Of a DNA stretch of 64,000 nucleotides, positions 35,232 to 57,574 are shown in pieces. The notes under the pieces were generated by a model. The model worked only from the letters and a program-made list of their open reading frames with translations, did not search any database and was not told where the DNA came from. The stretch lies in NCBI RefSeq assembly GCF_902500225.1, contig NZ_LR722668.1, positions 1 to 64,000 on the forward strand, in the 5' to 3' direction. Position 1 is the first letter of the stretch. Each line of letters opens with the position of its first letter. Both the position numbers and the translations under genes were made by a program. Origin of the DNA: Buttiauxella massiliensis. GTDB lineage: Bacteria; Pseudomonadota; Gammaproteobacteria; Enterobacterales; Enterobacteriaceae.

Positions 35232-35307
35232 GGCCCCTTAGCTCAGTGGTTAGAGCAGGCGACTCATAATCGCTTGGTCGCTGGTTCAAGTCCAGCAGGG
35301 GCCACCA
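35232..35307 (+). tRNA. ileX: tRNA-Ile2 (CAT anticodon, lysidine-modified)
   Basis: A 76-nt cloverleaf with encoded CCA; acceptor GGCCCCT pairs with AGGGGCC, D-loop AGTGGTTAGAGC, anticodon CAT at 35265-35267, T-loop GGTTCAAGTCC. The sequence appears the same as the E. coli ileX product, which reads AUA after TilS converts C34 to lysidine, so it is not a methionine tRNA. The 3' part (from 35261) is the attachment site of the genomic island; the gene stays intact at the left end. Confidence 0.96.
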
Positions 35308-37282: not shown

Positions 37283-37915
37283 TTAGCTATTTGCTCTAAT
37301 ACAAAGGCTACACCTTTTAACCGAAGTTAGTGTAGTGATAGTCCTTGCTTCTGCTTCCAGTTCCGCTAAATCTTTAGCACAGACCTTAAAATAATCACCT
37401 CCAGTAAAAGGCTCTGGTTGAGAGTAGTTGTTATCGTTATTTATTGAATTGCAGATTGCAGCATGCAAACAGGTATATATTTCAGTGCTTGCATTATTCT
37501 TCCCTTCACTCTTTTTAGGAAGACTCAGTACATAACCGTTCGGGTTAGCTTTGAGCCAGGCTCGATATTGCTGCTCACTCTCCGGGTTTTCCTTACTATG
37601 GAAACGCACAATAGTGCTGGCGCTGGAGCTGTCTTCCATCACCGAAAGATACTTCATCGCAGCAAGCAAGTACGATGCATTAAATGTCACGTCTTGATAA
37701 TCTTTAGGTGACTGGCTATTCGTTTCTTCGTAATGTTCAATAAAGGCAGCCATGCTTTTCTTATCGAGCCGTCTTAGACTGTTACTGGCGTTTTTAACAT
37801 AGAGATTTCCCTGCTCTGCATAGAGAGTGAAAGGCTGCTTTCTACCAAGGGTAACCAACTCAGCTGGTTGTGAAAAACGTTCAAGCATGAAGTGATAAAA
37901 GTCTTTATATGGCAT
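37283..37915 (-). CDS. Unknown protein downstream of mcrC, possible frameshift near the end
   Basis: A 210-residue protein with no recognised domain. AGGA lies 7 bp before the chosen ATG (37915). It starts 57 bp after the mcrC stop, in the same direction, so it may be the last gene of the restriction operon. Near its end the sequence GTTAAAAGG offers a second reading: removing one A continues in frame as KGVAFVLEQIAKIGLELPQS and stops at 37255-37257, a more protein-like tail than the present Cys/Arg-rich VKRCSLCIRANS. The gene may therefore carry a one-base insertion. Function unknown. Confidence 0.7.
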   Translation of the reverse strand: MPYKDFYHFMLERFSQPAELVTLGRKQPFTLYAEQGNLYVKNASNSLRRLDKKSMAAFIEHYEETNSQSPKDYQDVTFNASYLLAAMKYLSVMEDSSSASTIVRFHSKENPESEQQYRAWLKANPNGYVLSLPKKSEGKNNASTEIYTCLHAAICNSINNDNNYSQPEPFTGGDYFKVCAKDLAELEAEARTITTLTSVKRCSLCIRANS

Positions 37916-37972
37916 ATAACTTCCTGTACCCACAAAATAGTATGCGGAGAATTATCTGATCCAGTCTGAGAA

Positions 37973-39340
37973 TTAGTTTATTAAATCATATTGATATAAA
38001 TGGTTAGCATTGTCTGCATTACCTCTGTGGACATCCATTTCGGGAAAACAGGTAAATTCTGACTGCCATTCCCCCTCAACCAATTTCCCCTGTTCAAGGT
38101 CAAACGGAACACACCACAGGGCCAGTTGCCTATCAAACTGAAACACAGGTAAAGGCGTATTGAAATACTGATGACAAGGATAGACCAGCATCATATTGCC
38201 TTGTCCTTGCAAATATTTTTGCCCGTACGCATACATCTGATAAAGATCAGCCTGGTTTATTTCATATTTTCGCTTATTGTCGCCGTGTCTTGTATCCAGC
38301 AATTTCCATTTTGCATCAAGTACTAATCTTTGCTGGTTATCTGCAATCAAAAAGTCAGGTTTAAGCATAAACCAAAGCTCTTCAGCACTGGAGCCAATTG
38401 GAGTATGTGCCAGTAAGTGACAGCTTTTTGCCTGTGTCGTGAGCTTAAAGCCAGATTGTAATGAAAGAGAAAAACAACGCCCGACCCACGACTCATACAA
38501 CCGTTCCATAGGGAATAACAGGGAAATGCCTTGATGGATCCCTTTCTGGAAATCAGGATTTAACTTTTCGAGAATCAGCAGGCACCAGGGTTTTATTACG
38601 CGATAATTATAAAGATACTTACCGTCCCCCCACTGAGCCATGTCAGCCACTGCAGAGCCACTTAGCGGTGTAATCTCAGCCATCTGATGGCTAAGAGTAT
38701 TTGCCTGCCGCCAGCTATCATTGTCTTTCGTCATTTTTAGAACGATATCAAGAGCAGTACGCAGAAGACGGTTTTCTATTCGCTGCGGAGAAAACTCAGC
38801 ATAACGCACATGGAACCGAGTCCCTCTTCCCGGAGACTGTCTCAACTGCCGGTTAACATCCAGTTGCCCACGGATGAATGCACTGTCGTCATCTTCAATC
38901 TGAAGGTAGTCAAAGCGCAGCCCCTTACGCATCAACTCTAGTAAATGTCGAAGAAACTCACCAAAAATCCATTCATGTAAGGGCTGATTACTTCGCTGTA
39001 ACGCGGCCTGGCTAGCTTCGCGCGGACTCATAGTAATAGACGACGCAAGCATCCTGCGAAGAAGCAGGCGAAGCGGCTCAGGGCGCACTACCGCTTCAAG
39101 CTGTGTCTTCGGCAAAATTTCAAACGATTCACCGTTGGGCGCTTGCAGATAACCCACGTAACTCCCCAACCGAAGAAAATGCTTACCTTCCCGATGAAGA
39201 AGTTGAGAACTTCCGGTCCATTGCTCTTGTAACGTTTCAAGCCAGGCAAAAGTTTGCGCAGAGACAATCCCCAGATCCATACTAGAGGGCTGCGATTGGT
39301 CGCAGGTTAGTAAGGCATACTCTCGAACCTGAAACGTCAT
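37973..39340 (-). CDS. mcrC: McrC-like 5-methylcytosine restriction nuclease subunit
   Basis: A 455-residue McrC-family protein, the endonuclease partner of the McrB GTPase motor. The nuclease motif of the PD-(D/E)xK fold is visible as KPDFLIADNQQRLVLDAKWK: D329, then D342-A-K344. The N-terminal half is the McrB-contacting region. It is longer than E. coli K-12 McrC (348). Its ATG shares one base with the mcrB stop (TAATG), so the two are translationally coupled. Modified DNA is the expected target, but the specificity depends on McrB and is unknown here. Confidence 0.9.
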   Translation of the reverse strand: MTFQVREYALLTCDQSQPSSMDLGIVSAQTFAWLETLQEQWTGSSQLLHREGKHFLRLGSYVGYLQAPNGESFEILPKTQLEAVVRPEPLRLLLRRMLASSITMSPREASQAALQRSNQPLHEWIFGEFLRHLLELMRKGLRFDYLQIEDDDSAFIRGQLDVNRQLRQSPGRGTRFHVRYAEFSPQRIENRLLRTALDIVLKMTKDNDSWRQANTLSHQMAEITPLSGSAVADMAQWGDGKYLYNYRVIKPWCLLILEKLNPDFQKGIHQGISLLFPMERLYESWVGRCFSLSLQSGFKLTTQAKSCHLLAHTPIGSSAEELWFMLKPDFLIADNQQRLVLDAKWKLLDTRHGDNKRKYEINQADLYQMYAYGQKYLQGQGNMMLVYPCHQYFNTPLPVFQFDRQLALWCVPFDLEQGKLVEGEWQSEFTCFPEMDVHRGNADNANHLYQYDLIN

Positions 39341-41310
39341 TACAGGATTCCCTGATAAGCCGCTGGTGATGTGAAAGCATGAGGATTGATACGAAAACGT
39401 CTGTCAGACAAGCTGCTAGCAATATCCGCTGGGAATAGCTCTGCCAGACCTGGCAGTTGTGCTGACTGTTGCAGTAAAATAAATCGACTCTCTTTTGATT
39501 TTGACGAGTCGTTCAACACCCAGCCAATACGCTCATAGTCATCAAAGAAATACTCCCGTAATAACGGTAATAGTTTCTCGCTGAAAATCACTGACAGGCA
39601 TTTTTCACGCTCAGCAGCACTCTCAATATTTTTTAGCGGCATAAAATAGGCGTGGCCGATCATATGCTCACTATCTAAAAGTGCTTCAATGCGCTGATTA
39701 ATGCGGTTTAATAATGTTGAGACATCGATACCAAACGCAGTGATTCCCGCAAGTAAATCTGGCTGAGATTGCATTTCGATAAAACTAAAGCGTCGTCTTA
39801 ATGCCAAATCCATCTGAATAAGTGACTTGTCGGCCGTGTTCATTGTGCCAATGACATAAACATTCTGAGGTACTGAGAACAGGCTTTTAGAATACGGCAG
39901 CATCAAAGCTCTCGCGTCTTCGGCATCCTGGCGTTTATCAGGCTCAAGCAAAGTGATTAGCTCACCAAAAATACGAGCAATATTCCCACGGTTAATCTCA
40001 TCAATAATCAAAATATGCGGCTGCGCACGATGATCATTTGATTCAACAGGTGCCAGAAGTTGCGTTAACTTCTCTCTGTCAATAGTCGTGTCTTTCAGCT
40101 CATAAAGAGTTTTTTGTGAAAGTGCTTTAAAGAACAAATGCTCTTTAGGCAAACTTGGAGCGTAGGTGCGCAACCATTTCACCGGGCGCATTTGATGAAA
40201 ACCATCGCGTTCATCATTGGGTAAATATTGGTAGTCGGCAGTGATTTCAGCGATTGCGCGGAATTTATGATTACCATCAGAGACAACAACCAGGTCACCA
40301 TTGCGCATAATATTTTTAAAGGTATTAACGGCAGTACCCATATATTCGCTTGTAGCTTCTGATGAGCCATTCTCAGCTGTAATCTGCGACTTAATAGTTT
40401 CAAGCGTAGAGGATGCGCTGAAGTTAATATCCTCACCCCACCCTAATAAAATATAGTTATTTGCGAGGCATTCCTCATAAATATCATCCTCGCCTTCCAT
40501 GGTATTGCCGAGTGACATTTTCCAGACCCGCCTCCCATTCAGGGAGATGGGCAGCGTTGAGCTTCCCTGCACTTTAACCTTCGCATTCAGGCAAAGCTGT
40601 TTAAAAATTCCATCCACTACTTCGTAACGCAGGTTTCCGCTGGTTTCATCCGTCGTGGCACGAATCCCTTCGATAAAGTCTTCGTAGGAAAAACTTTGAT
40701 GGAAAGTGGTAAACATAATCCGCTGTTTTTCAACCAAGGTCTGGTAACGAGCTTTCACCACATCCCGCAATGCTTGCCCTTGATGTGCCTGAACTGCATT
40801 CTGATACCATTCACCGTCCGCGATTTTCACCGCCAGTTCTGTAGTGGCATAAGTCTTACCTGTTCCAGGTGGCCCAAATAAGATTTGATTGAGGGGATAC
40901 ACGTTGAGCATTTCCTTATTTTTTTCCACACGTGGTCTTAACTCAGGCAATGCTCCACCAATGAGTAATTCCACCAGCAGTTTCAGCGCATCAACAGACT
41001 CAATATCAGCATCGTACCCGTATTGCGATGAGCTGCCATCTTTCGGGAATCGGCGATAGCTAGTACTTTTGGTCTTTTCCCAGTGGCAAAATAAGCCGGG
41101 AATGCTGTCTATCTCTTCACGCAGACTGATAGTATCCGGTGCAAGTACCAGCGGGCTTTTGCTAATGACACCCTCAGCCTTACGTTTTACATATAGATAC
41201 TTGCCATTACCCAGCGCGTGCTCTGAGGCGTAGCTCGGTTCATATTTCCCAGCTTCTAATGTAAATCCCAGAACATTAAGTGCCTGATAAATCTCCAGTG
41301 AATTAAGCAT
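39340..41310 (-). CDS. mcrB: McrB-like GTPase with an inserted EVE-like domain
   Basis: A 656-residue AAA+ protein of the McrB group. An unknown N-terminal domain (1-125) is followed by Walker A GPPGTGKT (146-153), the McrB FHQSFSYEDFIEG segment (203-215), Walker B LIIDEINRGN and the signature MNTAD (490-494), which in McrB mark GTP use. Between Walker A and B sits an insert of about 180 residues with EVE/ASCH-like features (WKMSLG, NNYILLGWGEDINFS, GDLVVVSDGNHKFRAIAEIT, PVKWLR; about 262-385). EVE domains bind modified bases, so the insert is a likely target-recognition module. It starts 33 bp after the hsdR 3'-end remnant. Confidence 0.9.
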   Translation of the reverse strand: MLNSLEIYQALNVLGFTLEAGKYEPSYASEHALGNGKYLYVKRKAEGVISKSPLVLAPDTISLREEIDSIPGLFCHWEKTKSTSYRRFPKDGSSSQYGYDADIESVDALKLLVELLIGGALPELRPRVEKNKEMLNVYPLNQILFGPPGTGKTYATTELAVKIADGEWYQNAVQAHQGQALRDVVKARYQTLVEKQRIMFTTFHQSFSYEDFIEGIRATTDETSGNLRYEVVDGIFKQLCLNAKVKVQGSSTLPISLNGRRVWKMSLGNTMEGEDDIYEECLANNYILLGWGEDINFSASSTLETIKSQITAENGSSEATSEYMGTAVNTFKNIMRNGDLVVVSDGNHKFRAIAEITADYQYLPNDERDGFHQMRPVKWLRTYAPSLPKEHLFFKALSQKTLYELKDTTIDREKLTQLLAPVESNDHRAQPHILIIDEINRGNIARIFGELITLLEPDKRQDAEDARALMLPYSKSLFSVPQNVYVIGTMNTADKSLIQMDLALRRRFSFIEMQSQPDLLAGITAFGIDVSTLLNRINQRIEALLDSEHMIGHAYFMPLKNIESAAEREKCLSVIFSEKLLPLLREYFFDDYERIGWVLNDSSKSKESRFILLQQSAQLPGLAELFPADIASSLSDRRFRINPHAFTSPAAYQGIL

Positions 41311-41342: not shown

Positions 41343-41380
41343 CTACGCCCCTTTCAACATATCAAACACCACCCGAGCAA
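41343..41380 (-). repeat. Remnant of the hsdR 3' end between the Hsp70 gene and mcrB
   Basis: Thirty-eight bases identical to the true hsdR end (45617-45654) at 36 positions, in one frame encoding ARVVFDMLKGA and TAG. Both mismatches are third-position, synonymous changes (Ala GCT/GCG, Val GTG/GTT), so this piece derives from a functional hsdR allele. It marks the right-hand junction of the inserted three-gene module. Confidence 0.92.
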
Positions 41381-43137
41381 CATTTTTTACCCCAACGAGC
41401 ACCGCAGATACTGCAGGGCTGATACCTTACAAACTCGGTTCTCTGTTGCTCCGTTAGCGTCTTTCTATGGTAGGGATTAGTATCATTGAATTTTTTCAAA
41501 AGCTCACCAGGGACAAGATCCCAATTCTCTTTGTCAGGCGTAACATTCGCTCTGACCAGCAAGCCATAAGGGAGTTTTTTTTCTCCCTTTAACTTAAACC
41601 GTTTTTTTTTTGAATCTGGCAAAACTGTCGTCGTCGCGAGGCCAAATTCGAGATCATAAAACTCTGTCGAACGCTGGAGTTGCCTGTCACCACCTACGCC
41701 AGAAACATGAACAATCAGATTTTCATCAATGCTAATTTCCAGCTCAATTCTTTCTTCAAGGGGAGGAAAATCAGGGTTGATCGGGATGACCAGTTCACCA
41801 TAGTTGGTTCGCGGATCTGCGGCGGCTGTTTTACCTACCATTTGTGGTCGTTTAAAAGACGCAAGTGCATTCCCGTCCCGCGGGTCCGTACAATACATAG
41901 ATTGTGGATATCTAATGGAATTTCCACGAGTGGGAAGTAATGTCCCCTCAGGAATGATAGTCAGCACCGAATTACGAGCTTCAAGTAGCTCAAAAGGCTT
42001 TGATAATGTCAGTTTCAATTCATCTGCAGCTATCCATGCGGCCCCCTCAGAAATAATACGATCGCCCTTCTTTGATATTTCAAGCGAAGCGATACCAAAC
42101 AACTCATTCAACTGCCGTTTGATAAGGGGCATATTGACCATACCGCCAGTAGCGAGGCACAGCGCAATCGTCTGCCTGTCAATATCGGCCTGGTCATCCG
42201 CTAACAATGCATCTATCTCATTAATCCCCTGGCGGATTATGCGTTGGGAAATGGCCTCAAGCTCACCACGCGTTAACTTGATTTCAATTTCCGCTTCTTC
42301 ACCTTCACCAATATAGTAGTCAGGTACAAAAATAAATGTCTCTTCACGAGTTGAAAGCGTAATTTTTGCACGTTCACAGGCGCCCTGTAATGTCGCTAAC
42401 ATACCGGGATTGCGCTCAAACCGGCTCTCTTCATCCCAACCATGCTGGTCAGCATGCCTCTGTTCAACATACTTCAGAATCGCGTCATCAAGATAATCGC
42501 CACCCACGGTGTTGTTACCACGGTTAAGGATTTGCAGTATATTGCCATTAACAACCTTGCATAAGGTTAGATCAAGCGTACCGCCGCCCCAATCAAATAC
42601 CAGCAACAACTTCCCTTCAAATCTCCGTAATGTTCCTTTGGGGTCTTCTTGATCTCTAAAATAGCCATACAGAGCCGCAAGAGGCTCATGCACAAAACTT
42701 TCGACATAGACACCGGCATTAAGTAAAGCCTCACGAAGTACCTGCCGTTCACGCCCCCCCATCGCAACGGGGATGGTCACAACCGCATTCGTCAGATCAG
42801 CACTTTCTTCGTCATCCTCATCACGAGCATGATCTACAAGATATCGAATATACTCGGTGACCACTTCAGCGGGGCTCAGTAAGCGACCTTCGACATTAAT
42901 ATCAGAACAACCCAACAGCTTCTTAGGTCCACGAACGGTGTTTCCTAAAACACCAATGCCATGCTGATCGAGTTTATCTTTTGCCGCTTTACCGCAAATG
43001 ATTTTATCGCTCTCATAACGAACGACTGAAGGATGTGGCCGTCCTAAGTCATCAAAAGATTTAATTTTTCCGGCACGCGTCACAACAGAGATCAGGCTGT
43101 TTGTGGTGCCAAAATCGATACCTATTTTTTGAACCAT
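41362..43137 (-). CDS. Hsp70-family ATPase of the defence module
   Basis: A 591-residue Hsp70/DnaK-like protein, distinct from housekeeping DnaK. The actin-fold ATPase motifs are intact: phosphate 1 IGIDFGTTNS (5-14), phosphate 2 VFDWGGGTLDL (180-190) and adenosine LATGGMVNMPLIKRQL (328-343). A short beta-type substrate domain follows (about 390-500), but the helical lid is replaced by a tail ending in a cysteine cluster (C575, C578, C586, C587; CSICGARWGKKCC). Its last codons lie within the hsdR 3' remnant. The start overlaps the coiled-coil gene by 16 bp. Probable role: ATP-driven remodelling or regulation of a partner in the defence operon. Confidence 0.88.
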   Translation of the reverse strand: MVQKIGIDFGTTNSLISVVTRAGKIKSFDDLGRPHPSVVRYESDKIICGKAAKDKLDQHGIGVLGNTVRGPKKLLGCSDINVEGRLLSPAEVVTEYIRYLVDHARDEDDEESADLTNAVVTIPVAMGGRERQVLREALLNAGVYVESFVHEPLAALYGYFRDQEDPKGTLRRFEGKLLLVFDWGGGTLDLTLCKVVNGNILQILNRGNNTVGGDYLDDAILKYVEQRHADQHGWDEESRFERNPGMLATLQGACERAKITLSTREETFIFVPDYYIGEGEEAEIEIKLTRGELEAISQRIIRQGINEIDALLADDQADIDRQTIALCLATGGMVNMPLIKRQLNELFGIASLEISKKGDRIISEGAAWIAADELKLTLSKPFELLEARNSVLTIIPEGTLLPTRGNSIRYPQSMYCTDPRDGNALASFKRPQMVGKTAAADPRTNYGELVIPINPDFPPLEERIELEISIDENLIVHVSGVGGDRQLQRSTEFYDLEFGLATTTVLPDSKKKRFKLKGEKKLPYGLLVRANVTPDKENWDLVPGELLKKFNDTNPYHRKTLTEQQRTEFVRYQPCSICGARWGKKCCSGGV

Positions 43138-44432
43138 GTTAACTCTCTCTCAATGCTTTCAAGAACCAGGTCAATCTGATGTGCCGCGATTTCCACTTTT
43201 GGTTTTTCTCTCTGCAATGCATTCAGAGACAATCTAAGTGGTTCCATAACCTCTTCATTTAGCAGATTAAAAGCACGAGACTTCGCCTTGCTGACATCAT
43301 CTTTCAGGTGCACGCGCAGAGCTTTATCATCAAGAACTTGCTCTTCTGACTGGGTTTTAACTTGGTTAAGACTGGCTTTTAGCTGCTCAATTTCCTGCTG
43401 CAACGCAGATACTTGCTGTGTCAGTTGAACCTTTTCAGCTTCGGCTTTATTAAGATTTCTTTCGAGCTGTTCATTAATGCTCTCAGCACCTTGCTGTTTA
43501 TCACGAGCGCTACTCAATAATTCGTCGTAAAAACTAAGCGTGTCTGCGATACCGCTTCTCGACTCGCTTACTTGAGAAGCGAGAAAGCCACATATTTTCT
43601 TCTCATTAACCAAGCCATCGCCACGTTCTACGATGCATTTTTTGAATGCCTCAATACCTATTTTTACATCGCATTTGCCTGTTTCTACGGCCCACAAATA
43701 ACAGATAGTCAGCAAATTTTCGCATTGCTGGCGAAGATGCTCCGGAGTTAGTGAGCGAAGCGAAGAAGATGATGTGTCTGAGCCCTCTTTCTGCTTAAGC
43801 TGCTCCTTAATCGACGTAATTCTTGCTTCATAGCGTTCGCTAAAACTACGGGTTAAGTGCGCCAGAATCCCCGGATTACTTAAACTCAGAGGTTCAGCCT
43901 CTGACAGAAAGAGATTTGAGTACCCCAGGTGTTTGCCCACCCAATGCTCGCTTAATGCCTTTACGGCAAAATCGAGTACTACCTTGCTAACCTCATGATT
44001 CCCTTGAGTGAGAATCACTATTTGTGACAGTTTGTTGAACTCAGGATCTGACATCCCGACAGATGCAACCAGCTTCTCGAGTACCTCGTTAGGTATTCTT
44101 CCCGGCTGCTGTATGCGCTTTAAATCAGACTGCAATGCCTGAGTTAGTGCACTTGCACGCACCTTGCCGTCCTTATTTGTCACAGGAATAAACAGCTGGT
44201 TTAAAATACTCTCTAGTGATTTTATTTTTTCAGCATCATTCGCTTTGCTACTGCTCACAGCTACATCTGACGACGCGTTGTCTGAAAAACGTTCTGACTT
44301 GTCGAATTCGGCATGGGTTTCGGCAATCACTGATTCAGTTTCAGTGGCAGCTGGAATAACTGGGCGGTCCGCATGATCCCTGTCTCGTTTCAAGGATAAG
44401 ATCCCTGTCTTTTTTATTTTATTTTCAGTCAT
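43122..44432 (-). CDS. Coiled-coil protein of the defence module
   Basis: A 436-residue protein that I do not recognise. The first 70 residues look disordered and charged; a helical middle region follows (about 75-285); then a clear coiled coil (about 285-350, NKAEAEKVQLTQQVSALQQE and onward) and a conserved-looking C-terminal helical tail. The position before an Hsp70 gene and the coiled-coil architecture make a GrpE-like nucleotide-exchange or adaptor role conceivable, but no GrpE signature was seen. The start at 44432 overlaps the zinc-finger gene end by 8 bp; the stop overlaps the Hsp70 start by 16 bp. Confidence 0.85.
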   Translation of the reverse strand: MTENKIKKTGILSLKRDRDHADRPVIPAATETESVIAETHAEFDKSERFSDNASSDVAVSSSKANDAEKIKSLESILNQLFIPVTNKDGKVRASALTQALQSDLKRIQQPGRIPNEVLEKLVASVGMSDPEFNKLSQIVILTQGNHEVSKVVLDFAVKALSEHWVGKHLGYSNLFLSEAEPLSLSNPGILAHLTRSFSERYEARITSIKEQLKQKEGSDTSSSSLRSLTPEHLRQQCENLLTICYLWAVETGKCDVKIGIEAFKKCIVERGDGLVNEKKICGFLASQVSESRSGIADTLSFYDELLSSARDKQQGAESINEQLERNLNKAEAEKVQLTQQVSALQQEIEQLKASLNQVKTQSEEQVLDDKALRVHLKDDVSKAKSRAFNLLNEEVMEPLRLSLNALQREKPKVEIAAHQIDLVLESIERELTWFKK

Positions 44433-45513
44433 CTGAAGCCTCTGATTCTGGAACTGTAACGTTAAATACTTCACTATATTTCAATTTTGAGCCGTAATTG
44501 CGCCACGCTTTAAGATCACCTACCTCTGTCGCCTTGAGATAACGAAGGTAATTCAGTTTTTGGCGATCCTGGTTCACCAGTTTCGAGATATTTATCTGGC
44601 TGATAGCCAGTTCGAGACTTTCCAGTGTATAGCGCGAAAAATGGGCAACATAATCATTCAGGATACAGCTGGTAATATGGTCGGTCGGCAATCTTAAAAA
44701 CTCGTTTTGTTGGGCTGCATTGGCAGAAATTCTATCCCCACGGAAAAGCATCAACGCGTCGTCCAGACGAGAAATTGACGAACGCCCTTGGAAATCTGAA
44801 AAATCATTAAATGAGAATTTAATTAGCTGAGACAGCGAATACGCTAATGCCGTGGGATATTGCATGAGCAACTGATGTGAGCGATTAAAACACTTTGCAA
44901 AGTCTTCAGTGGTTAACCGTTCAGCGCGCTGATCCTTCGCCATCACGCCATGTAAATAACGAACCAGGCCATCTTTGTACCAGGTGACTTCATTACAATG
45001 TTCCGTTTGGCTTATGAAGACGGCTATCGTATCGCCATCGAAATCATCCCGGCCAAACAGGCGCAAAAAACTCTGATCGACCTGCTCAAGCTGAGAGGTT
45101 GAAGCCACCAGCAAATCAATCTTAATGCGCTTAGGGCGTATCCCCCGGCGCGATAGCTTGATATCAAAAAAGCCTTTCTTCGCTGAACTGAGTTGTTTCA
45201 ATAACTCGTCCGGATGTCCGAGGACGACCCCATTCAGTTCAATCTCATCCACAAAATTCAATACGATATCTTCGGAACCAACCGATCGGGTAAGCCTGAA
45301 GTTATCGCCCGTCACCTCGCGCCCATCTATCGTCAGCGTAGGGTTGGCGACAGGGTGAATGCGCTCGTGTTGATTAAGCTCTGATAATGAAGAAAACTCC
45401 ATAGGACACTCACGGCAGCGAAATTTTTGCGTCCCCCCATTTTCTTGCGATGAAAAACCTCGTTCATGAAAGAGGTCAATTGCAGTTTCCTGGATCCAAC
45501 CAACAGTGGGCAT
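44425..45513 (-). CDS. C2H2 zinc-finger protein of the defence module
   Basis: A 362-residue protein with a textbook C2H2 finger at residues 33-53: C33-x2-C36-x12-H49-x3-H53, with the core F40 and L46 in place. The remaining 300 residues match no family I know; they include a beta-rich region (60-130) and a helical C-terminal half. AGGAGCAG stands just before the ATG. It is the first gene of the three-gene overlapping set, 103 bp after hsdR. Classical C2H2 fingers are rare in bacteria and usually bind DNA, so a nucleic-acid sensing role is possible. Confidence 0.88.
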   Translation of the reverse strand: MPTVGWIQETAIDLFHERGFSSQENGGTQKFRCRECPMEFSSLSELNQHERIHPVANPTLTIDGREVTGDNFRLTRSVGSEDIVLNFVDEIELNGVVLGHPDELLKQLSSAKKGFFDIKLSRRGIRPKRIKIDLLVASTSQLEQVDQSFLRLFGRDDFDGDTIAVFISQTEHCNEVTWYKDGLVRYLHGVMAKDQRAERLTTEDFAKCFNRSHQLLMQYPTALAYSLSQLIKFSFNDFSDFQGRSSISRLDDALMLFRGDRISANAAQQNEFLRLPTDHITSCILNDYVAHFSRYTLESLELAISQINISKLVNQDRQKLNYLRYLKATEVGDLKAWRNYGSKLKYSEVFNVTVPESEASDD

Positions 45514-45616: not shown

Positions 45617-48600
45617 CTACGCCCCTTTCAACATATCAAACACAACCCGCGCAAACCCTTTTGCCAGTTCTGGGTTAGACAGGTACTGCATCATCATCTC
45701 TTGCTGGGCGTCGTTGCTGTCCATTACCGCGTCATCAATCGCTTTAGGGAAATCCCCCAGCATGGCTTGTTCGCGGGTATTGTTGGCAATCTGAGTCATC
45801 ACCGCCTGGTTTTCTGATAACTTGTCGCGCACGGTAAAGGCATAATTGATCATGTCTTTGTCGCTAAGGTTATCTGTAATAAACAGGTCGTTCAGGCGCG
45901 CCAAAATATTCGACAGGAACTCTTCTTTCTTATCCTTCGGCTTGGCTGTACCAATGTCATTGCCCGGCTCGATTTTGTACTCTTCTGCATCTTCCTGAAG
46001 CTTGAGATGCTGCTCGTGGAGTTTTGATAAGCGGTAATGGCTCATCTCCACGTTGCTTAAATCAATCTCGTCTTCTTCAATGCGCTGCTCATGCAGTAAC
46101 GGACGCAGATGGCGGGCAAACAGGCTGAGCTTTTCCAGTTCCTTGTCATCGTACTCAACGATTTGCGACATAAACTCATAAAAGCGTACAAAACTGCCGA
46201 GATCTTTCTTGAAGATATCCAGCTTGTCTTTCTCTTGTTTGCAATCTTTGAAGCTGTTTTCAGCGTTGGTGATCAGCACGGTATCGTTGGTTTTTTTTGT
46301 GCGTTCAAAGATTTCTTTTGCCAGCTTATAAGCCTCAACAGCGGAGGTATAACGCTTCTTCCATCGCTCAACGGCAGGTTTGCAGATATTGCTAATCGCG
46401 GCGTTTGATTTGTTTTTGGTGAAGAAGGCGTCACAGAATTGCTCGACTTCATTCCACTGGAAGATACCGCTGGTACGGAGTTTCTGGAACAACTCGAAGA
46501 CCTTTTGCGGATCGCTGACATCAGTCAGTTCAGCTGTTTGGTAGTAAGGCTGGAATGCACCCAGAACTTCCTCGGGCTCGTTCCAGAAATCAAGTACGAA
46601 GGTGCCCGACTGCGCTTTACCCGGATAGGTGCGGTTCAGACGAGATAACGTCTGTACGCACTCCACGCCACCCAGTTTTTTATCCACATACATGGCACAC
46701 AACTTCGGTTGGTCAAAACCGGTCTGGAACTTATTCGCCACCAGCATTACCTGATAATCATCGCTATCGAAGGCTTTGCGCATATCCCGGCCTTTCAGCC
46801 CTGGGTTCATATTGGTTTCGGTAAACTTCTGGTTCAGCAGTGCGAGGCTATTGTGGTCACTCTCCACAAATTCCACTTCACCAGAAAACGCGACCATGGC
46901 GTTAATCTTCTGGTAGTTGTTCTCCGCAATGTATTTATCAAATGCCAGTTTGTAGCGCACCGCCGCTTTGCGTGAACTGGTGACAACCATCGCTTTGGCC
47001 TGCCCGCCCAGTAAATGCATCACATGTTTTCGGTAGTGCTCAACAATCACTTTTACTTTTTGCGAGACGTTGTGTTCGTGCAGCACGACCCACTGGTTCA
47101 GTTTGATTTTGGCTTTCTTGCTGTCCACTTCCCGGTCAGGATCGTCCAGTTTTTGCAGCAGCTTATACGCCACCTTGTAGTTGGTGTAGTTCTTCAGCAC
47201 ATCAAGAATAAAGCCTTCTTCGATGGCCTGACGCATGGAGTAAACGTGGAAGGCTTCCGGCTTATTGGTCTTTGATGCGGGTTCCAGAGGATTAGGACGG
47301 CGGCCAAATAGCTCCAGCGTTTTGGCCTTTGGCGTGGCGGTAAACGCATAGTAGTTAAGATTACTGCTGTTTTTACGCGCCGCGATGGTGGCATCGAGGA
47401 TATCTTCCGAAGACAACTCCACTTCCTCATCCGCTTCGTCTTTCATCAGCACTTCTTTGAGCTGACGCGCCGTTGAACCGCTTTGCGATGAGTGCGCTTC
47501 ATCAGCAATTACCGCATATTTACGCTGCTTTAGGCTGGCACTTTTTTCAATCGCCTTCATTACATGCGGGAAGGTCTGGATGGTAACGATGATAATCGGC
47601 TGTGAATTTTCCAGTGCACTGGCGAGCTTTTCTGATTTTGAGCCATCGCCCTCTTTATTGTTGATGCGCCCGACCACGCCATCGGCGTGTTCAAACTGGT
47701 AAATGGTGTCCTGGAGCTGGTCGTCCAGCACGGTGCGGTCTGTGACCACAATAACCGAGTGGAACTGCTTCTCGCCCTTCTCATCGTATAGTCGGGAAAG
47801 CTGGTGAGCAGTCCAGGCGATAGAGTTAGATTTCCCGGAACCGGCACTGTGCTGAATCAGATATTTATGGCCAGTGCCTTCATCTGCGGCAGCGCTAATC
47901 AGTTTATTCACCACATCCCACTGATGGTAACGCGGGAAGATCAGGCTCTCTTTTTTAACCTTCAGCCCGTTCCAGTCCTCTTTCTCTTCGATTTGCAGGT
48001 GCACAAAACTGGCGAGGATTTTCAGCAGGTTGTCGGGCAGCAGGACTTCATTCCACAGGTAGCTGGTGGCGTATTCGTTTTCATTTTCGGGGATTTCATT
48101 CCCCGCCCCGCCTTCCTGGGTGCCTTTGTTAAACGGCAGAAAGAAGGTGTCATCACCCGCCAGTTTGGTGGCCATGAACACTTCATACTGGCTGACGGCA
48201 AAGTGCACCAGTGCGCCACGTTTGAAGGTGAGCAAAGGCTCGGCTTTGTTGGTTACCGGGTCTTTCGGCAAACGTGTTTTTTTATATTGTTTAATCGCGT
48301 TATGTACCGCTTGCTTGAACTCAGATTTCAGCTCAAGTGTGGCAATCGGCAGGCCGTTGATAAACAGCACCAGATCAATACGCCACTTCTTGGCTACTGA
48401 GACAGTTTCATCAAGTGCCGCTTTGGTGGCATACGGGCTATAAACCAGTTCAGGCACCACACGGCAGATATTCTGTTCATAACGCGCCAGGGTTTCCGGG
48501 TTGAGATTGTGCTCGGGCTTAAACTGGCACAGCGAAAAGCGCGCATTGTGGCTTTTGATGCCGTGGCGCAATACGCCCAGCGTACCGTAAGTGCGCGACA

Positions 48601-48865
48601 GCTGATCAGTGGCGTTGTTATCGGCTTTTTTAAGTTGGCCCACCAGCAAGTCGAGGAAATGGCGCTCGGTATCGGTGGGGTAAATCTTCGAGAATTTCTC
48701 CCACTCCAGCGGCTGAGTGTTTTGCACAAAGGCAATGGCATCCTGCGAGTACAAAGCACGTTCGCGGTCATAGCTTTCTGGTTTGCCACGACTCCAGCCT
48801 TTCTCTTCCATTTGAGCAATCATTTCATCCTGGAAAATGAGCTCTTTGGTGGTATCCATACTCAT
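45617..48865 (-). CDS. hsdR: Type I restriction enzyme R subunit
   Basis: A 1082-residue motor-nuclease subunit of a type I restriction enzyme. The PD-(D/E)xK nuclease is near the N-terminus (D164, E178-L-K180 in DLVLFINGLPIATLELK); the SF2 translocase follows with Walker A HSAGSGKSNSIAW (about 339-351) and DEAH (455-458); helicase motifs continue to NKFQTGFDQPKL and RLNRT. The C-terminus ARVVFDMLKGA is duplicated at 41343. Its ATG overlaps the hsdS stop by 4 bp. No disruption is seen, so it should be active. Confidence 0.97.
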   Translation of the reverse strand: MSMDTTKELIFQDEMIAQMEEKGWSRGKPESYDRERALYSQDAIAFVQNTQPLEWEKFSKIYPTDTERHFLDLLVGQLKKADNNATDQLSRTYGTLGVLRHGIKSHNARFSLCQFKPEHNLNPETLARYEQNICRVVPELVYSPYATKAALDETVSVAKKWRIDLVLFINGLPIATLELKSEFKQAVHNAIKQYKKTRLPKDPVTNKAEPLLTFKRGALVHFAVSQYEVFMATKLAGDDTFFLPFNKGTQEGGAGNEIPENENEYATSYLWNEVLLPDNLLKILASFVHLQIEEKEDWNGLKVKKESLIFPRYHQWDVVNKLISAAADEGTGHKYLIQHSAGSGKSNSIAWTAHQLSRLYDEKGEKQFHSVIVVTDRTVLDDQLQDTIYQFEHADGVVGRINNKEGDGSKSEKLASALENSQPIIIVTIQTFPHVMKAIEKSASLKQRKYAVIADEAHSSQSGSTARQLKEVLMKDEADEEVELSSEDILDATIAARKNSSNLNYYAFTATPKAKTLELFGRRPNPLEPASKTNKPEAFHVYSMRQAIEEGFILDVLKNYTNYKVAYKLLQKLDDPDREVDSKKAKIKLNQWVVLHEHNVSQKVKVIVEHYRKHVMHLLGGQAKAMVVTSSRKAAVRYKLAFDKYIAENNYQKINAMVAFSGEVEFVESDHNSLALLNQKFTETNMNPGLKGRDMRKAFDSDDYQVMLVANKFQTGFDQPKLCAMYVDKKLGGVECVQTLSRLNRTYPGKAQSGTFVLDFWNEPEEVLGAFQPYYQTAELTDVSDPQKVFELFQKLRTSGIFQWNEVEQFCDAFFTKNKSNAAISNICKPAVERWKKRYTSAVEAYKLAKEIFERTKKTNDTVLITNAENSFKDCKQEKDKLDIFKKDLGSFVRFYEFMSQIVEYDDKELEKLSLFARHLRPLLHEQRIEEDEIDLSNVEMSHYRLSKLHEQHLKLQEDAEEYKIEPGNDIGTAKPKDKKEEFLSNILARLNDLFITDNLSDKDMINYAFTVRDKLSENQAVMTQIANNTREQAMLGDFPKAIDDAVMDSNDAQQEMMMQYLSNPELAKGFARVVFDMLKGA

Positions 48866-50241
48866 GCGGTAGCTTCCTCTGATGCCTCGATATCGCTGGT
48901 GTCTGGTGCAACCCAGTTACGCACGTCGATTTTGCCGGTGACGGCGGCGGAGATAAGGGCGGTGCGGCGTTCTTGCAGCAGTAAAAGCGAGTGTTCCGCA
49001 TTACTGATTAATTTTGAATATTGAGATTTAATGTTCCCAACAATATCATCAATCTGTTTTTGCTCTGCATATGGCGGAATTACAATCGGTATGTTGTATA
49101 CTTGCTCTACTCTTAAGTGACTTACCGTACTACCCGCAGCCTCACTATCAATATATCTTTTAAGGCAATCTGAAGTTAAATAGTCAAATAAAAATTTAGT
49201 GTATTCAGTGTCATGACAAATAAAGTTCATCATTCGCTGCCCCATACAAAGCTTTGTATTCTCAGGAACTATACAGACCTCTCCAGCTGGTGCTTCACGG
49301 GTAAAAAGTATTGAACCAACAGGTGGAACACCTCTATCCGTCCAAATTTTATAATCTCTTTCATTTGTATAAAGTGCACCATCCAGTATCAAAGACTGTT
49401 TTTTTACATTAGTAGTTCGTACAACCAAATATTCACCATCATCAAAATACTCAGGTGTCCTATTTTTACAGTCTATAATACTTGCAATATGTTTTAATTT
49501 TTTAACATCCCAATGCTCCGGTACGTCCCCCAACCACTCAACACCAGAATCTTTCATCGGCACATCAGGGTTTAGCCCTTTAGTGACGGCATGGCTAATC
49601 ACTGCCTGACGTTTTTCTTTTAGCAGTTCAATCAGTTGCTGCTGCTTTTCGATCAGGTTATCGATTTTTGCGGTTTCGTGATCGAGGAAAGATACTATTT
49701 TATTCTGTACAGTTAACTCAGGATAGGTTAAATGGAGATTTTCAATTACACCCATTCCAATATTAGGCTGTGTTCCTTGACTCCAAGAAAGTTGTACGCT
49801 GGTTTGAAAAAAATCAGCTAGCATAGAGTAATAAACATACCGAGGAGCAATTATTTCTTTATTACATCGTATAAGTGCCAAAGGGGACCAAATGTTGAAT
49901 ATTTCATCTGTCTCAACAATAGCTACTGCCCCGGTAGTATTCCCTGACTTCACCATAAAAATATCATCACGCTGTGGTAAACACTTCAAGCTATATTTTT
50001 CGTGAAGATTAAATGATATGTAAGCTCTCTTCCTTGAAAAATCCAACTTATTAAGCTTAATTGCTTCCGCAGAAAGAAATGGAACCCCATCATCTATAAA
50101 ATTTGGTGTTTCATGTGGCCCATCAGTTATTTTGGCAGAAACCACAAATTTCAATGCAACTCTAGTCCATTCCAAGGGAATGATATCTATCCATTGGCTA
50201 TTTGCTGATTGGTATTCCGGATACGCCTTATATTTAGCCAT
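48862..50241 (-). CDS. hsdS: Type I restriction enzyme specificity subunit
   Basis: A 459-residue S subunit with two target recognition domains (about 1-180 and 230-420) separated by a long helical spacer (DHETAKIDNLIEKQQQLIEL, then KEKRQAVISHAVTKGL) and a second one at the C-terminus (LQERRTALISAAVTGKID), so it recognises a bipartite DNA site. The site cannot be predicted by eye. The TRD regions are AT-richer than hsdM and hsdR, as is common for S genes that exchange domains. Its ATG shares one base with the hsdM stop. Confidence 0.96.
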   Translation of the reverse strand: MAKYKAYPEYQSANSQWIDIIPLEWTRVALKFVVSAKITDGPHETPNFIDDGVPFLSAEAIKLNKLDFSRKRAYISFNLHEKYSLKCLPQRDDIFMVKSGNTTGAVAIVETDEIFNIWSPLALIRCNKEIIAPRYVYYSMLADFFQTSVQLSWSQGTQPNIGMGVIENLHLTYPELTVQNKIVSFLDHETAKIDNLIEKQQQLIELLKEKRQAVISHAVTKGLNPDVPMKDSGVEWLGDVPEHWDVKKLKHIASIIDCKNRTPEYFDDGEYLVVRTTNVKKQSLILDGALYTNERDYKIWTDRGVPPVGSILFTREAPAGEVCIVPENTKLCMGQRMMNFICHDTEYTKFLFDYLTSDCLKRYIDSEAAGSTVSHLRVEQVYNIPIVIPPYAEQKQIDDIVGNIKSQYSKLISNAEHSLLLLQERRTALISAAVTGKIDVRNWVAPDTSDIEASEEATA

Positions 50242-52604
50242 TAGGAATGTACCTCCTGCAGCAGCTTCATAATCTCGGCGCTTACGGCATCCAGATCGGC
50301 ATCAATCTCTTCTAATGGGCGTGGTGGCTGGTAAACATAGAAGTGACGGTTAAACGGAATCTCATAACCGACAATACCCACTTCATTGTCTTTGGCATCG
50401 CGCTTATCGGCATTAATCCAGGCATCGGCCACGTGCGGCAGGACTTCGGCTTTAAAGTAGTTTTCAATCAGATCGCTGGTGGCAATAGCAGGGTTTAACG
50501 GCACGTTTTCGTTATCACGCAAATCACCATCCTGCTCGAATTCCACCACCTTGCCTTTGTATTCAAATGCACCGTACAGCGGCTGGACAGCTTCTTTCAG
50601 TACCTTTTTCACTACCGGTTCAGCGGCAGGGTTTTTAGTGGTGATGGCGTCGATAAACTGTTTGTTCTCTTTGGTATCGAGCTTAACACCTGCAGTTTTA
50701 ATCGCACTTTTGAGTGTCAACTGGAACTCATTAAAGTCATTACTCACCAGCTCTTTGCCACCAGCCTTAGCACCCAACGCCGTCTGGATTTGCTGCGCCT
50801 TATTCATCAATGCACGTTGAGCCAGCCAAAGTTTGCTGTCCAGCAGGTCTTTAATCTGCTTCTCTTTCAGCTCGGCAAATTCAGCTTTGATAATCGCACG
50901 GGCTTCTACTTCGATATCGGCAAAGTCACCGTAGTTGTCGTCTTGCCACTGTGCGGCGAACTCTTCATATAAACGTTCCATCGGTGCATTCAGTGGTTTG
51001 GTGGCAAAGCGCAGGGTGGCAATCGCTTCCTCAGTCACCTGTGCAGACAAACGTAACGGGCGCTCAATGGTCAGGCGGCGGTAACCAAAATCAGTGCTGT
51101 TAAAGATTTTGCTGGCGAAGGTTTTCGGTGCTTCGGTTTTGGCAGTTGCAGATTGGCGGCCCCGGTTAGATTTTTGCTCAGGCGCTTTATCCAGGCCTAA
51201 TTCTTCAAGAGAAGTCGCCTCCACCACTCCAAACTCACCAAAAGTACGGGTGATAAGCTTGATGTCTTCCTCGCCCATCAGATTACGCTTGGAACCTAAA
51301 GACTTACGCATCTTGCCGCACAGGTTGGTGCCATCAATGAGCTGGACTTTGCCCTTGCGCTCCGGGGCTTTCTTATTCGACAGAATCCAGACGTAGGTCG
51401 CAATGCCGGTGTTGTAGAACATATCCGTTGGCAGCGCGACGATGCCTTCCAGCAAATCGGCTTCCAGAATATAACGGCGTATTTCACTCTCACCGCTACC
51501 CGCCCCGCCGGTAAACAGTGGTGAACCGTTGAGGATAATCCCGATACGCCCGCCATTACTCACCGAGCCATCCACTTTATCGCTATCGCGCATTTTGCTA
51601 ATCAGGTGCATCAGGAACAGCAGCGAGCCATCAGATACACGCGGCAGGCCAGGACCAAAACGCCCGTTAAAACCTTTTTGCAGATGCTCGTCGTTAATCT
51701 CGCCTTCAATCTTTTTCCAGTCCACGCCAAACGGCGGGTTAGAAAGCATGTAGTCGAACTGGTCTTGCGGTAACTGGTCATTAGAAAGCGTGTTGCCTAG
51801 CTTGATGCGGCTGACATCCTGGCCTTTGATCAGCATATCGGCTTTACAGATGGCGTAAGATTCCGGGTTCAGCTCCTGGCCAAATGCGCGCATCACCGCT
51901 TTTGGGTTCAGTTCGTGCACGTATTCCATACCAGAAGAGAGGAAACCGCCAGTACCGGCTGTCGGGTCGTAAATAGTGCGGATGATGCCGTCTTTCGACA
52001 ACGCTTCATCATCTTCCATAAACACCAGCGAAGTGGTTAAGCGCACGATATCGCGTGGGGTAAAGTGCTCCCCGGCAGTCTCGTTTGAGCTCTCCGCAAA
52101 ACGACGAATCAGCTCTTCAAACACCAGGCCCATTTCATGATTGGAAATGGCTTTCGGGCTCAGGTCAGTGGTGGCGAATTTCTTAACGATTTTATACAGC
52201 AGGTTTGCATCATCCAGCAGGCCAACAAACTCGCTGAATTTGAAATGCTCAAAGATTTCACGCGCATCCTTTGAGAAAGACTGCACGTAGTTCTCGAGGT
52301 TGGCCTTGATATCGTTCTGCCCCATCTTGCCCAAATCCATCGGGGAATTATTGAAGAACGACAGGCCTTTGGTAGCACGTAACAGGAACTTCTCTCGGCC
52401 TTCTTCCGGCAACGGGCTGGCCTTCAGCTTCTCCGCTTCCGCAACCACAGCATCTTTGGTTGGTGCTAACACGCACTCAAGACGGCGTAACAGCGTAAAA
52501 GGCAGAATCACGCGCCCGTACTGGGACTGCTTAAAGTCACCACGAAGCAGATCGGCGACCGACCAGATAAACGCAGCCGTTTGAGAAAAGTTAGTGTTAA
52601 TCAT
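50241..52604 (-). CDS. hsdM: Type I DNA N6-adenine methyltransferase subunit
   Basis: A 787-residue M subunit. The N-terminal HsdM_N region is followed by [10 protein letters not shown], the SAM-binding [11 protein letters not shown] (about 212-222) and the catalytic NPPFGVDW (about 289-296), which mark N6-adenine methylation. About 270 extra C-terminal residues beyond the usual 520-residue form carry acidic and Lys-rich helices, a known longer HsdM class. The start at 52604 ([12 protein letters not shown]) is chosen over the 66-bp longer frame by family pattern. First gene of the hsdM-hsdS-hsdR operon. Confidence 0.95.
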
Positions 52605-52947
52605 GAGTGATACCAAAGAGTGTGAAGAATGGACGTGATTATACATAAGCCATTTTGCATCGCACTGCATTGATGCGCATCGTTTTGAAACTAGGTTTTC
52701 AGATAGATCACTTTGCTTAAAGGTAACAAAAATGCTGCTTTCTTTAAGTTGTTATTGCGCAAACATGACAGACTTAGAAATAAGAAGTTACTTCAAATTA
52801 TTCAATACATTTTCGACATGTGAAACTAATTAATTATTGATTTCATGCATGTTTTCAACATGTACCTGATGATTTAATAAACGTAAATTAACTCGATATT
52901 GCTCATACGAAACGGTAGAGAGCACATTCTCGATTTGGCCAACTCTC
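52605..52947. promoter_or_regulatory. Divergent control region between hsdM and the secreted-protein gene
   Basis: A 343-bp AT-rich region that must hold promoters in both directions. It contains the 10-bp palindrome GATGCGCATC (52672-52681) near the hsdM side and two near-identical 12-mers, TTTTCGACATGT (52810-52821) and TTTTCAACATGT (52852-52863), 42 bp apart. These are possible operators. No open frame of note. Confidence 0.45.
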
Positions 52948-53760: not shown

Positions 53761-53835
53761 TAAAACCAAGAAATAGCTTAAGTTATTAAAAATGCAAATA
53801 AAACCAAATGCAAGCATTAGAGGTTGTTATATATT

Positions 53836-55572
53836 ATGAAGTTACAACTAATACAAAACCAACTTAAAACATATAATTTAAATAAATCCTTTAAAGAAAG
53901 ATGGTTAGATAGCATCAAAATGGAGTTTATTAGCATCGAACCTATACAGATTACTTATCTAGATAATAATGATATTGATGATTTATTGAGAGAGGGAAAG
54001 TATGCAGAGGTTGCATGTTCCTTGTTATCGCAGGGTGAGATTAATGAGTTATCCCCTCTTCATTATGCAATCACAACTGGCAATACACTTTTATTAATTG
54101 CTTTGCTAGCTAATGGCCTTGAAGTTGGTAACAAAAGTAATTCAGATGATGCACATCTTGCTTTCGCAATTGCATATAATAATACAGAAATTTTTAACCT
54201 CTTGCTTTTGGTTGATGACATTAATACCAACGACGTTTATTTCTTAGAGAATGAACTATCCGATATTGCATCTTACTTTGGCGAGTATAATTACGGGGAC
54301 TATTTTTCGGCATTAACTTGGCTCCAGAGACCAGAATATCATCATATTCATGAATTCTTGGAGATAGATTGGGACTTACGCTGGGGGGAAAATAATAATC
54401 CATTAATTTTTTACGCATATCTTAATGATGATTTTAAAATGATGGACCGACTAGTATCTTTAGGTGCATCCATGAATCCCTATATTGACTACAATAATTA
54501 TACTTCATTACTCGAATTTGCAGTTGAATCATGGAGTAAAAATAAACCTGCTACCTATAAAGGCCTGGAGTGGTTTGCAAAGTACTGTTCTTTTCTAAGT
54601 GAAGATTATGATGACCATAACAATATTCTAACTGCACTAATATTAGATGAATGCCCTGCGCAATGCCAATCGCTTGGTTTAAAGGGATTGGATCTAATTG
54701 AAGACACAATAAATGAATATAAAGATGAAATTGAATCTCTACAATCTAAACTTTACGACCAAAATATCCCAACAACGCCATATGAGCATATATGGTCGCA
54801 TTATAACATTACTACATCATTGTTTATGGACTTGGCTGGAAATGAAAGAGTAATATTTAACGATCAAGTTAGAGATTTTTTAGTTTCATCAACTAACCCT
54901 GAAGTTATTGAATTTGGAATTCTAAGCCAAAATAGTAATTTCCCTGATAAAATATCCATCCAAATTGAAGCGTTAAATAAAATATTGGGGGGCCTTTATT
55001 GGATTGACAAACCACTAGAAATAATTCACCTATATAATCTAAGTGACTTCCAAAAAATATACTGGTTTACTCACTGTCCTGTGGAAATCTTAGTTATTAT
55101 AAACATGTTCGCCAATAGCAAAGGAATTAATATATTCAAAGCAATAAAAGGTGCAAGTATTACAACTGATACTGATTATGAACGCATGCTTAACTTCTAT
55201 TACGACTACAGAGATAACCTCTGCTATTTTCTTTCCTCCGAATTATACAACCATCTATCTACTTATTTAAAAATCCACAACGAATTAACATATGGTAAAA
55301 TGATACCTGCCAATGAAAACATCGAGGATAATACGATCCATCGCAACCACCACCCTTCAAATAAAGCAGATGATATTTTCTTTGATGGTAAATATGTAAA
55401 TATAAATATGAGCATTGGTGATGAGGAGATAAGGGATAAAATACATTATTCAAATTGGATTTTAGGTATTCAAAAAACAAGGCTGTTTAAAATTTGCCCG
55501 GATTGCAAAGAATTATTTTCTCGACCATCAATGGCATATGATGATGTTTGTATTGAATGCATTAATAAATAA
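53836..55572 (+). CDS. Ankyrin-repeat-like protein with a C-terminal Cys4 motif
   Basis: A 578-residue protein, strongly AT-rich. Residues about 60-130 contain two ankyrin-like units (LSPLHYAITTGNTLLLIALL, then AHLAFAIAYNNTEIFNLLL). The rest is helical and unrecognised. The C-terminus carries CPDC-x14-CIEC, a probable zinc ribbon. The start at 53836 is the first ATG; a TTG at 53824 is possible. Short intergenic gap (75 bp) after the secreted-protein gene suggests a shared transcript. Role unknown; an effector or defence function is only a guess from the island context. Confidence 0.75.
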   Translation: MKLQLIQNQLKTYNLNKSFKERWLDSIKMEFISIEPIQITYLDNNDIDDLLREGKYAEVACSLLSQGEINELSPLHYAITTGNTLLLIALLANGLEVGNKSNSDDAHLAFAIAYNNTEIFNLLLLVDDINTNDVYFLENELSDIASYFGEYNYGDYFSALTWLQRPEYHHIHEFLEIDWDLRWGENNNPLIFYAYLNDDFKMMDRLVSLGASMNPYIDYNNYTSLLEFAVESWSKNKPATYKGLEWFAKYCSFLSEDYDDHNNILTALILDECPAQCQSLGLKGLDLIEDTINEYKDEIESLQSKLYDQNIPTTPYEHIWSHYNITTSLFMDLAGNERVIFNDQVRDFLVSSTNPEVIEFGILSQNSNFPDKISIQIEALNKILGGLYWIDKPLEIIHLYNLSDFQKIYWFTHCPVEILVIINMFANSKGINIFKAIKGASITTDTDYERMLNFYYDYRDNLCYFLSSELYNHLSTYLKIHNELTYGKMIPANENIEDNTIHRNHHPSNKADDIFFDGKYVNINMSIGDEEIRDKIHYSNWILGIQKTRLFKICPDCKELFSRPSMAYDDVCIECINK

Positions 55573-57551: not shown

Positions 57552-57574
57552 AGCGTTTTTCTGTTCTTCCTTCG

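Follow-up and report, generated by a model that had tools for sequence, protein, structure and literature searches.

The described systems nearest to the locus studied here are the CoCoNuTs (coiled-coil nuclease tandems) and the GAP1-N2 GTPase conflict systems. Type III CoCoNuTs are described as having an Hsp70-like protein, CnuD, and coiled-coil partners near McrBC and type I restriction-modification (R-M) genes; CnuD carries degenerate Walker A-like motifs and HEAT-like repeats and goes with an NxD-type McrB (PMC11090510). In the GAP1-N2 systems, an HSP70 takes part in a predicted conflict operon that is defined by GTPases and comes with GrpE and DnaJ/FNIII fusions (PMC7159879). Here we analysed a three-gene unit, the trio, from Buttiauxella massiliensis (GCF_902500225.1; contig NZ_LR722668.1, positions 1-64,000 of the forward strand, this whole 64,000-nucleotide stretch being called the window), encoding a C2H2 zinc finger protein (ZNF), a coiled-coil protein (CC) and a dedicated Hsp70. 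It differs from both systems in their defining features: the catalytic residues of its Hsp70 are intact, HEAT is not among the Pfam hits of the window Hsp70, and none of the GTPases, GrpE or DnaJ/FNIII fusions was recognised in the trio. Membership of the CoCoNuTs was rejected on the intact residues, the lack of a HEAT match and the window McrB, which by eye reads MNTADKS, that is, NxxD and not the CoCoNuT NxD. With DnaK, the trio Hsp70 shares the nucleotide-binding domain with its catalytic residues and a recognisable beta substrate-binding domain (SBD-beta), but it has no recognised lid, an altered linker and cleft and a CxxC...C tail, and neither dnaJ nor grpE is found in the unit. Accessory genes of the GmrSD, ankyrin, FRG and Schlafen-like types use the same insertion points as the trio in bacteriophage exclusion (BREX), type I R-M and DISARM (defence island system associated with restriction-modification) loci; those are named families, whereas for two trio proteins neither a fold match nor a full-length match to a named family of known function was found.

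We found that the three genes form one conserved, coupled unit in many phyla, and that this unit adjoins or sits inside unrelated modification-guided restriction systems. Reading function from gene context, we tentatively favour an autonomous anti-phage (or anti-plasmid) module that spreads horizontally and is powered by the dedicated Hsp70, a possibility that we place somewhat short of probable. The trio genes of the window are:

44425-45513, minus strand: ZNF gene, 362 amino acids (aa), with the C2H2 finger at residues 31-53, a beta domain at 59-135 and an all-helical repeat-like domain at 139-343
43122-44474, minus strand: CC gene, 450 aa from GTG or 436 aa from the ATG at 44432, the likely start; the protein has a disordered N-terminus, a helical domain at 87-304, a long helix at 306-420 (coiled coil) and a C-terminal helix at 427-449
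41362-43137, minus strand: Hsp70 gene, 591 aa, with an intact nucleotide-binding domain, a remodelled SBD-beta, no recognised lid and the CxxC...C tail

The methionine of the ATG at 44432 is aligned in 27/27 CC relatives, and with this start the open reading frames (ORFs) overlap by 8 and 16 bp, which bears out the original prediction, made from the letters alone, of three overlapping minus-strand genes.

As a first step, a tblastn search of the finger protein against plasmids found two Paenarthrobacter plasmids (L005 and L006) with the same three genes, the plasmid Hsp70 being 41% identical to that of the window, Cys-rich tail included. The trio looks broken on both plasmids, the finger gene being split by an IS3-family insertion element (L005, 11881-14359; L006, 10323-12801). 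For species genomes, a two-sequence profile of the Hsp70 C-terminal part was used, which is blind to the partner genes; it recovered 29 loci from about nine phyla (Pseudomonadota, Campylobacterota, Myxococcota, Actinomycetota, Binatota, Acidobacteriota, Nitrospirota, Gemmatimonadota and Latescibacterota; no phylum is given for L017), so the trio is not confined to the window locus. The order ZNF-CC-Hsp70 on one strand is kept in 27/29 of these tail-found loci, L028 and L031 beginning inside the unit at a contig end, and since a search with the tail only recovered all three genes in the same order, the coupling is not due to chance. All measured junctions (26/26 between ZNF and CC, leaving out L020, and 27/27 between CC and Hsp70) are overlaps or gaps of at most 12 bp, the overlaps being upper values since the longest possible ORF starts were taken. 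Locus ORFs were called by length, without gene prediction, and the finger genes of L020, L025, L027 and L035 were recovered in six frames.

The reverse search with a ZNF profile gave three matches in 398 Pseudomonadota genomes, two of them real (the own genome and G142, whose contig is as long as that of L035), and two in 296 Actinomycetota genomes, corresponding to the genome of L034 and to a new one, G569, which lies outside the tail-found set and contains all three genes together with the actinobacterial fourth gene described below. A 35-residue, finger-only match in G287 was not counted. When 60 near relatives, the own genome included, were searched for ZNF, the own genome was the sole match, and scanning genomes with the finger protein by itself gave no match. 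The profile searches in both directions indicate that the trio is rare, patchy and widely spread. A coiled-coil-rich fourth gene follows the Hsp70 gene in 8/8 actinobacterial loci examined (L005, L006, L012-L015, L034 and L045) and in none of the non-actinobacterial tail-found loci. Its product has about 445-454 aa where intact, with a longer ORF in L045, and showed no Pfam match in the two members scanned. In L006, a second IS3-family copy (15722-18323) splits this gene.

The window Hsp70 matches PF00012 with an E-value of 2e-41 (Pfam). Aligned to the DnaK of the same genome, the equivalents of D8, E171, D194 and T199, whose numbering and catalytic role in DnaK we take as given, are invariant in 26/26 Hsp70s. 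K72 is also invariant, and the spacing N-T-x4-K fits DnaK K70; the automatic alignment set V/I in the K70 column instead. Columns 2-512 of the 592 in the Hsp70 profile match DnaK 2v7y, through SBD-beta. Within this part the linker Asp393 of DnaK is replaced by Lys and A429 by Pro in 26/26 trio Hsp70s, with a gap over DnaK 401-404. No helical lid (SBD-alpha) was recognised, none of the 60 PDB profile matches shown extending beyond column 532 of 592. The short tail carries three cysteines (C575, C578 and C587; CxxC...C), invariant in 26/26, and appears to be metal-knuckle-like and to replace the lid. Since the catalytic residues are invariant and the protein has a remodelled linker and cleft, no lid and the CxxC...C tail, the trio Hsp70 is, judged by its residues, predicted to be ATPase-competent with a non-canonical peptide-binding side. 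Intact ATPase motifs, a reduced substrate domain and a Cys-rich tail had been noticed in the window copy and extend to all 26 aligned Hsp70s.

The finger scores slightly under the Pfam cut-off (PF00096; E 1.6e-4; 22.3 bits against 25.2 bits), but its residues C33, C36, H49 and H53 are invariant in 23/23 aligned relatives and the region itself matches C2H2 fingers in fold and profile searches, so that the C2H2 assignment stands. In the AlphaFold model of ZNF (mean predicted local distance difference test score, pLDDT, of 85), the finger is followed by the beta domain and the all-helical domain, and Foldseek gave no fold match for this model at E<=0.001. The helical domain is weakly similar to tetratricopeptide repeat (TPR) proteins: 1/23 members matches LapB at 0.004, and several chance-level Foldseek hits are to what we take to be TPR proteins. 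The idea that the finger senses nucleic acid was not supported and is set aside, neither supported nor excluded: there is a single finger whose helix, inspected by eye, often contains acidic residues, and 22/23 members are acidic over the whole protein, with an isoelectric point (pI) of 5.1-6.1. The finger-plus-beta part speaks to the contrary in three members, where it is basic (pI 8.0 for the window member, 9.1 and 9.7 for two further ones); it has a pI of 5.1-7.1 in the other 20. A J-domain in ZNF appears unlikely, since the HPD triplet occurs in only 1/23 ZNF proteins, that of the window (residue 100, with no Pfam J-domain match there); it occurs in 0/27 CC proteins. The CC model is of moderate quality (pLDDT 78; predicted template modelling score, pTM, 0.56) and contains a disordered N-terminus, a helical domain, a long helix and a C-terminal helix, the best-conserved part being the end of the long helix and a PPKV-like turn. 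It has no fold match at E<=0.001. For nucleotide exchange, a candidate role of CC put forward in the original prediction, no GrpE match was found by profile or by Foldseek with this moderate model.

The novelty of the set holds as far as testable. As had been supposed, no named defence system with this set was found in PADLOC, NCBIfam and the literature searched. PADLOC-DB 2.0.0 gave no match for the window ZNF or Hsp70 and only coiled-coil hits for CC (E 0.0096 and 0.61), while the sole PADLOC hit among 26 Hsp70s was a weak one (PDC-M61B at 6.5e-4). NCBIfam 20.0 (June 2026) showed nothing above cut-off for the three window proteins and 23 finger proteins, the Hsp70 and CC families being represented by the window member. 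No description of this gene set was recognised in full-text searching of the literature, where supplementary tables and subscription papers could hold one. In the main text of a 2026 BREX survey (PMC12839542) the words Hsp70, DnaK and chaperone are absent; 'ZF' and 'CC' proteins are named in one figure legend of the DefensePredictor paper (PMC13092281). Chaperones occur occasionally in predicted defence operons, and we found no named system that is centred on a dedicated Hsp70 and two partners of its own.

In the window, the trio lies between hsdM, hsdS and hsdR upstream and mcrB and mcrC downstream:

50241-52670, minus strand: hsdM methylase
48862-50241, minus strand: hsdS specificity subunit
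45617-48865, minus strand: hsdR, type I restriction subunit, with the trio cassette directly beyond its 3' end
39340-41310, minus strand: mcrB-like AAA-family NTPase
37973-39340, minus strand: mcrC

Family matches of these genes agree with the predicted position between a complete hsdMSR set and mcrBC, and the analysis supports a dedicated Hsp70 with intact ATPase residues, a reduced substrate half and two partners in a defence setting. When the window, the 29 tail-found loci and the two plasmids are taken together (32 loci), a modification system was found within the DNA examined in 17/32:

Type I R-M: window, L008, L009, L014, L015 and L029
BREX type 1: L021, L023, L027, L032, L035 and L036, the trio lying after pglX and before pglZ-brxL, with extra genes interposed in some
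Type III R-M: L019
DISARM drmABC: L033
Hma: L012
Methylase-DEAD-GIY-YIG cluster: L005 and L006

Settings rest on Pfam or PADLOC for representatives and on sequence clusters or the records' own annotation for the rest. All BREX calls except L032 rest on sequence clusters, L023 and L027 having no PF02384 match inside the locus, and we take pglX-pglZ-brxL to denote BREX type 1. Family scans of the locus neighbours covered part of the ORFs. The arrangements observed are hsdM-hsdS-[trio]-...-hsdR, pglX-[trio]-pglZ-brxL, mod-res-[trio] and drmABC-[trio]. No such system was recognised in the other 15 loci. PF02384 and PF01555 were sought in the whole genomes of these 15 and none was found inside a locus; one such methylase match lies 2.5 kb past the end of L030. 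L030 and L034 have a helicase-nuclease gene in common, the L034 copy matching PADLOC MkoA at 1e-45, and a large helicase in L018 carries a REase_MTES_1575 domain.

As a control, the whole genomes from which the 29 loci come were all searched for N6_Mtase (PF02384), which gave 149 matches in about 126 Mb (genome sizes rounded to 0.1 Mb, and some matches being pieces of one gene). Inside the 0.52 Mb of trio loci there are nine, all sequence-confirmed (L008, L009, L014, L015, L021, L029, L032, L035 and L036), against 0.58 expected, a 15-fold excess (Poisson 1e-8). On a tree of the 29 Hsp70s, with 21 rows scored for setting, the setting is clustered: 7 changes are needed, where the least possible is 6 and shuffled labels require 12.4 on average, and the six rows scored as being without a system all fall in one supported clade (100/99). 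Nevertheless BREX and type I require at least 3 changes each, even on well-supported branches, and near relatives differ in setting (L019 with type III against L021 with BREX; L029 with type I among BREX Halomonadaceae).

The cassette itself, of 4.3 kb, has left scars in the host genes, and the island that carries it has its own ends and integrase:

45617-45654, minus strand: upstream direct repeat copy at the hsdR 3' end, closing hsdR
41343-41380, minus strand: downstream direct repeat copy, containing the final codons of the Hsp70 gene with its stop codon
35261-35309, plus strand: 49-bp repeat at the 3' end of tRNA-Met (tRNA 35232-35307), left island end
57744-57792, plus strand: second 49-bp repeat copy, right island end
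56244-57662, minus strand: tyrosine integrase of the island

The flanking repeat of the window is 38 bp long with 36/38 matches, and the transferred unit is slightly larger than 41362-45513, since it includes both copies of the hsdR 3'-end repeat. In E. coli GDSC2227PM the order is hsdM-hsdS-hsdR-mcrB-mcrC with no trio and only 29 bp from hsdR to mcrB, the proteins being 89.6% (hsdR) and 75.8% (mcrB) identical to those of the window. The Shewanella (L008) and Vibrio (L009) loci, which are sisters on the Hsp70 tree, have the cassette after hsdS and between repeats of the hsdS 3' end, 23-24 bp long and with one mismatch each. Two different host genes, hsdR and hsdS, bear the same kind of scar, which shows that the three genes inserted as one piece. 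Direct repeats were clear in 3/26 loci tested, the other 23 having no clear repeat; a 9-bp match in L015, one point above its 15 simple shuffles, was taken as chance. The carrying island spans 22.5 kb (35261-57792) at tRNA-Met, downstream of an rpoD-like gene, has its own attachment (att) repeats and integrase, and has as cargo hsdMSR, the trio, mcrBC and an ankyrin-repeat gene (53824-55572). A further trio copy is on a contig classed as viral (L041, 1-11956), where the Hsp70 C-terminal part is 90% identical and the finger gene is cut by the contig end; its neighbours are a YagK/YfjJ-type gene and genes that, by eye, resemble those for an integrase, a repressor and an FRG protein. Carriage of the trio on a prophage or satellite is a possibility.

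We suggest an anti-phage module on the basis of the fixed three-gene unit, the invariant ATPase residues, the modification setting of 17/32 loci and the 15-fold methylase excess, and a mobile one on the basis of the scars at two gene ends, the cassette-free E. coli locus and the integrase and att repeats of the island. Chaperones are host factors required by phages. ZNF, with its helical domain, could recognise or carry the target, and CC could be a private co-chaperone that bridges it to Hsp70 and docks, probably, through its conserved C-terminal helices; ATP-driven Hsp70 cycles would dismantle or hold an assembly needed by the invader, such as a replication or packaging complex. Several points weigh against this proposal. 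No modification system was recognised in 15/32 loci, seven of these on short contigs, and six of the 15, all within the supported clade, adjoin metabolic or transport genes (L030 also a helicase-nuclease). The methylase enrichment weakens when loci are merged by hand into 21 lineages, five of which have a match (P 9e-5, or 0.07 if each lineage is weighted as five loci). Pfam, PADLOC and NCBIfam revealed no effector domain, whether nuclease, toxin or another, in the three proteins of the window, the trio was absent from the phage collection and, by a DNA search that would miss diverged copies, from E. coli, its rarity also counts, and the target is guesswork. If the trio does restrict phage, it would be an Hsp70-driven effector without a recognisable nuclease.

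The main rival, which we consider rather doubtful, is that the trio acts on the large ATP-dependent restriction complexes (type I, type III, BREX, DISARM or Hma), assembling them, taking them apart or restraining them, for instance so as to spare unmethylated DNA of the host itself or to release complexes that have stalled. Its being embedded in several modification-guided systems, often inside the gene set, would fit this role, and the proteolysis of HsdR by ClpXP, which controls type I restriction, is a precedent. However, the hsdR family occurs in 750 plasmid records (E<=1e-100) and the trio in 2; hsdR over at least 80% of its length is found in 110/5426 E. coli genomes, and the trio in no E. 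coli genome (DNA search only); near relatives go with different systems, type III in L019 and BREX in L021; and in one clade no modification genes were recognised in the vicinity of the trio. Remodelling of restriction complexes by the Hsp70, as first proposed, may occur, but this clade and the E. coli hsdMSR-mcrBC locus without the trio stand against it. That the trio is an integral part of the type I system was rejected, since the hsdR family is common without it and none of three hsdR neighbourhoods inspected contains it. We regard as unlikely that the trio is a general-purpose chaperone partner, plugging into type I and III R-M, BREX, DISARM and Hma through something they share, which could be a translocating complex on unmethylated DNA or an invader protein that blocks it. 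If the trio controls restriction complexes, one module would serve chemically different methylation-guided systems; this and the phage-restricting role are both directly testable with the 4.3-kb cassette and the natural pair of loci with and without it.

Embedding inside restriction gene sets, and type IV endonucleases directly downstream at some loci (GmrSD in L021, L023 and L029, by sequence cluster and by Pfam on L023; mcrBC in the window), would also suit a guard, which senses the inhibition of the host restriction complex by a phage anti-restriction factor and sets off a second response, much as PrrC does for a type I system. We find this quite unlikely, since no toxic effector domain was found in the window proteins, the same trio goes with partners of widely differing type, and in one clade no such partner was recognised. 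That the trio is a non-defensive stress or regulatory chaperone hitchhiking in islands is very unlikely: its neighbours include a luciferase-like monooxygenase (L016), a biotin carboxylase (L022), TctA (L024) and enolase (L025), as expected for a hitchhiker, but the methylase excess, the cassette scars at hsd gene ends and the patchy distribution stand against this reading. Most improbable, in our judgement, is an Hsp70 module directed at RNA or translation, as has been proposed for CnuD. An Hsp70 and a coiled coil beside McrBC and type I R-M resemble the CoCoNuT superoperons (PMC11090510), but the catalytic residues are intact, there is no Pfam HEAT match, the window McrB has NTAD, and no gene of any other clustered locus groups with the window mcrB.

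Downstream of mcrC, a gene of 216 aa (37283-37933) has no family match above cut-off. The accessory genes directly beside the trio are GmrSD in L023, ankyrin in L009, FRG in L008 and Schlafen AlbA_2 in L036. The L008 gene (10698-11996), between the trio and hsdR, combines the FRG domain with T1RH-like_C, a type I restriction endonuclease C-terminal-like domain. In L014, a 686-aa protein (2387-4447), for which Pfam and PADLOC gave no match at the limits applied, lies beside hsdM, where hsdR might be expected. On a Vibrio campbellii plasmid (L048, 11247-12936), the position after hsdR is occupied by a DUF4433 gene and a macro-domain gene, a pair that is presumably DarTG-like, and defence cassettes may have a hotspot at the hsdR 3' end.

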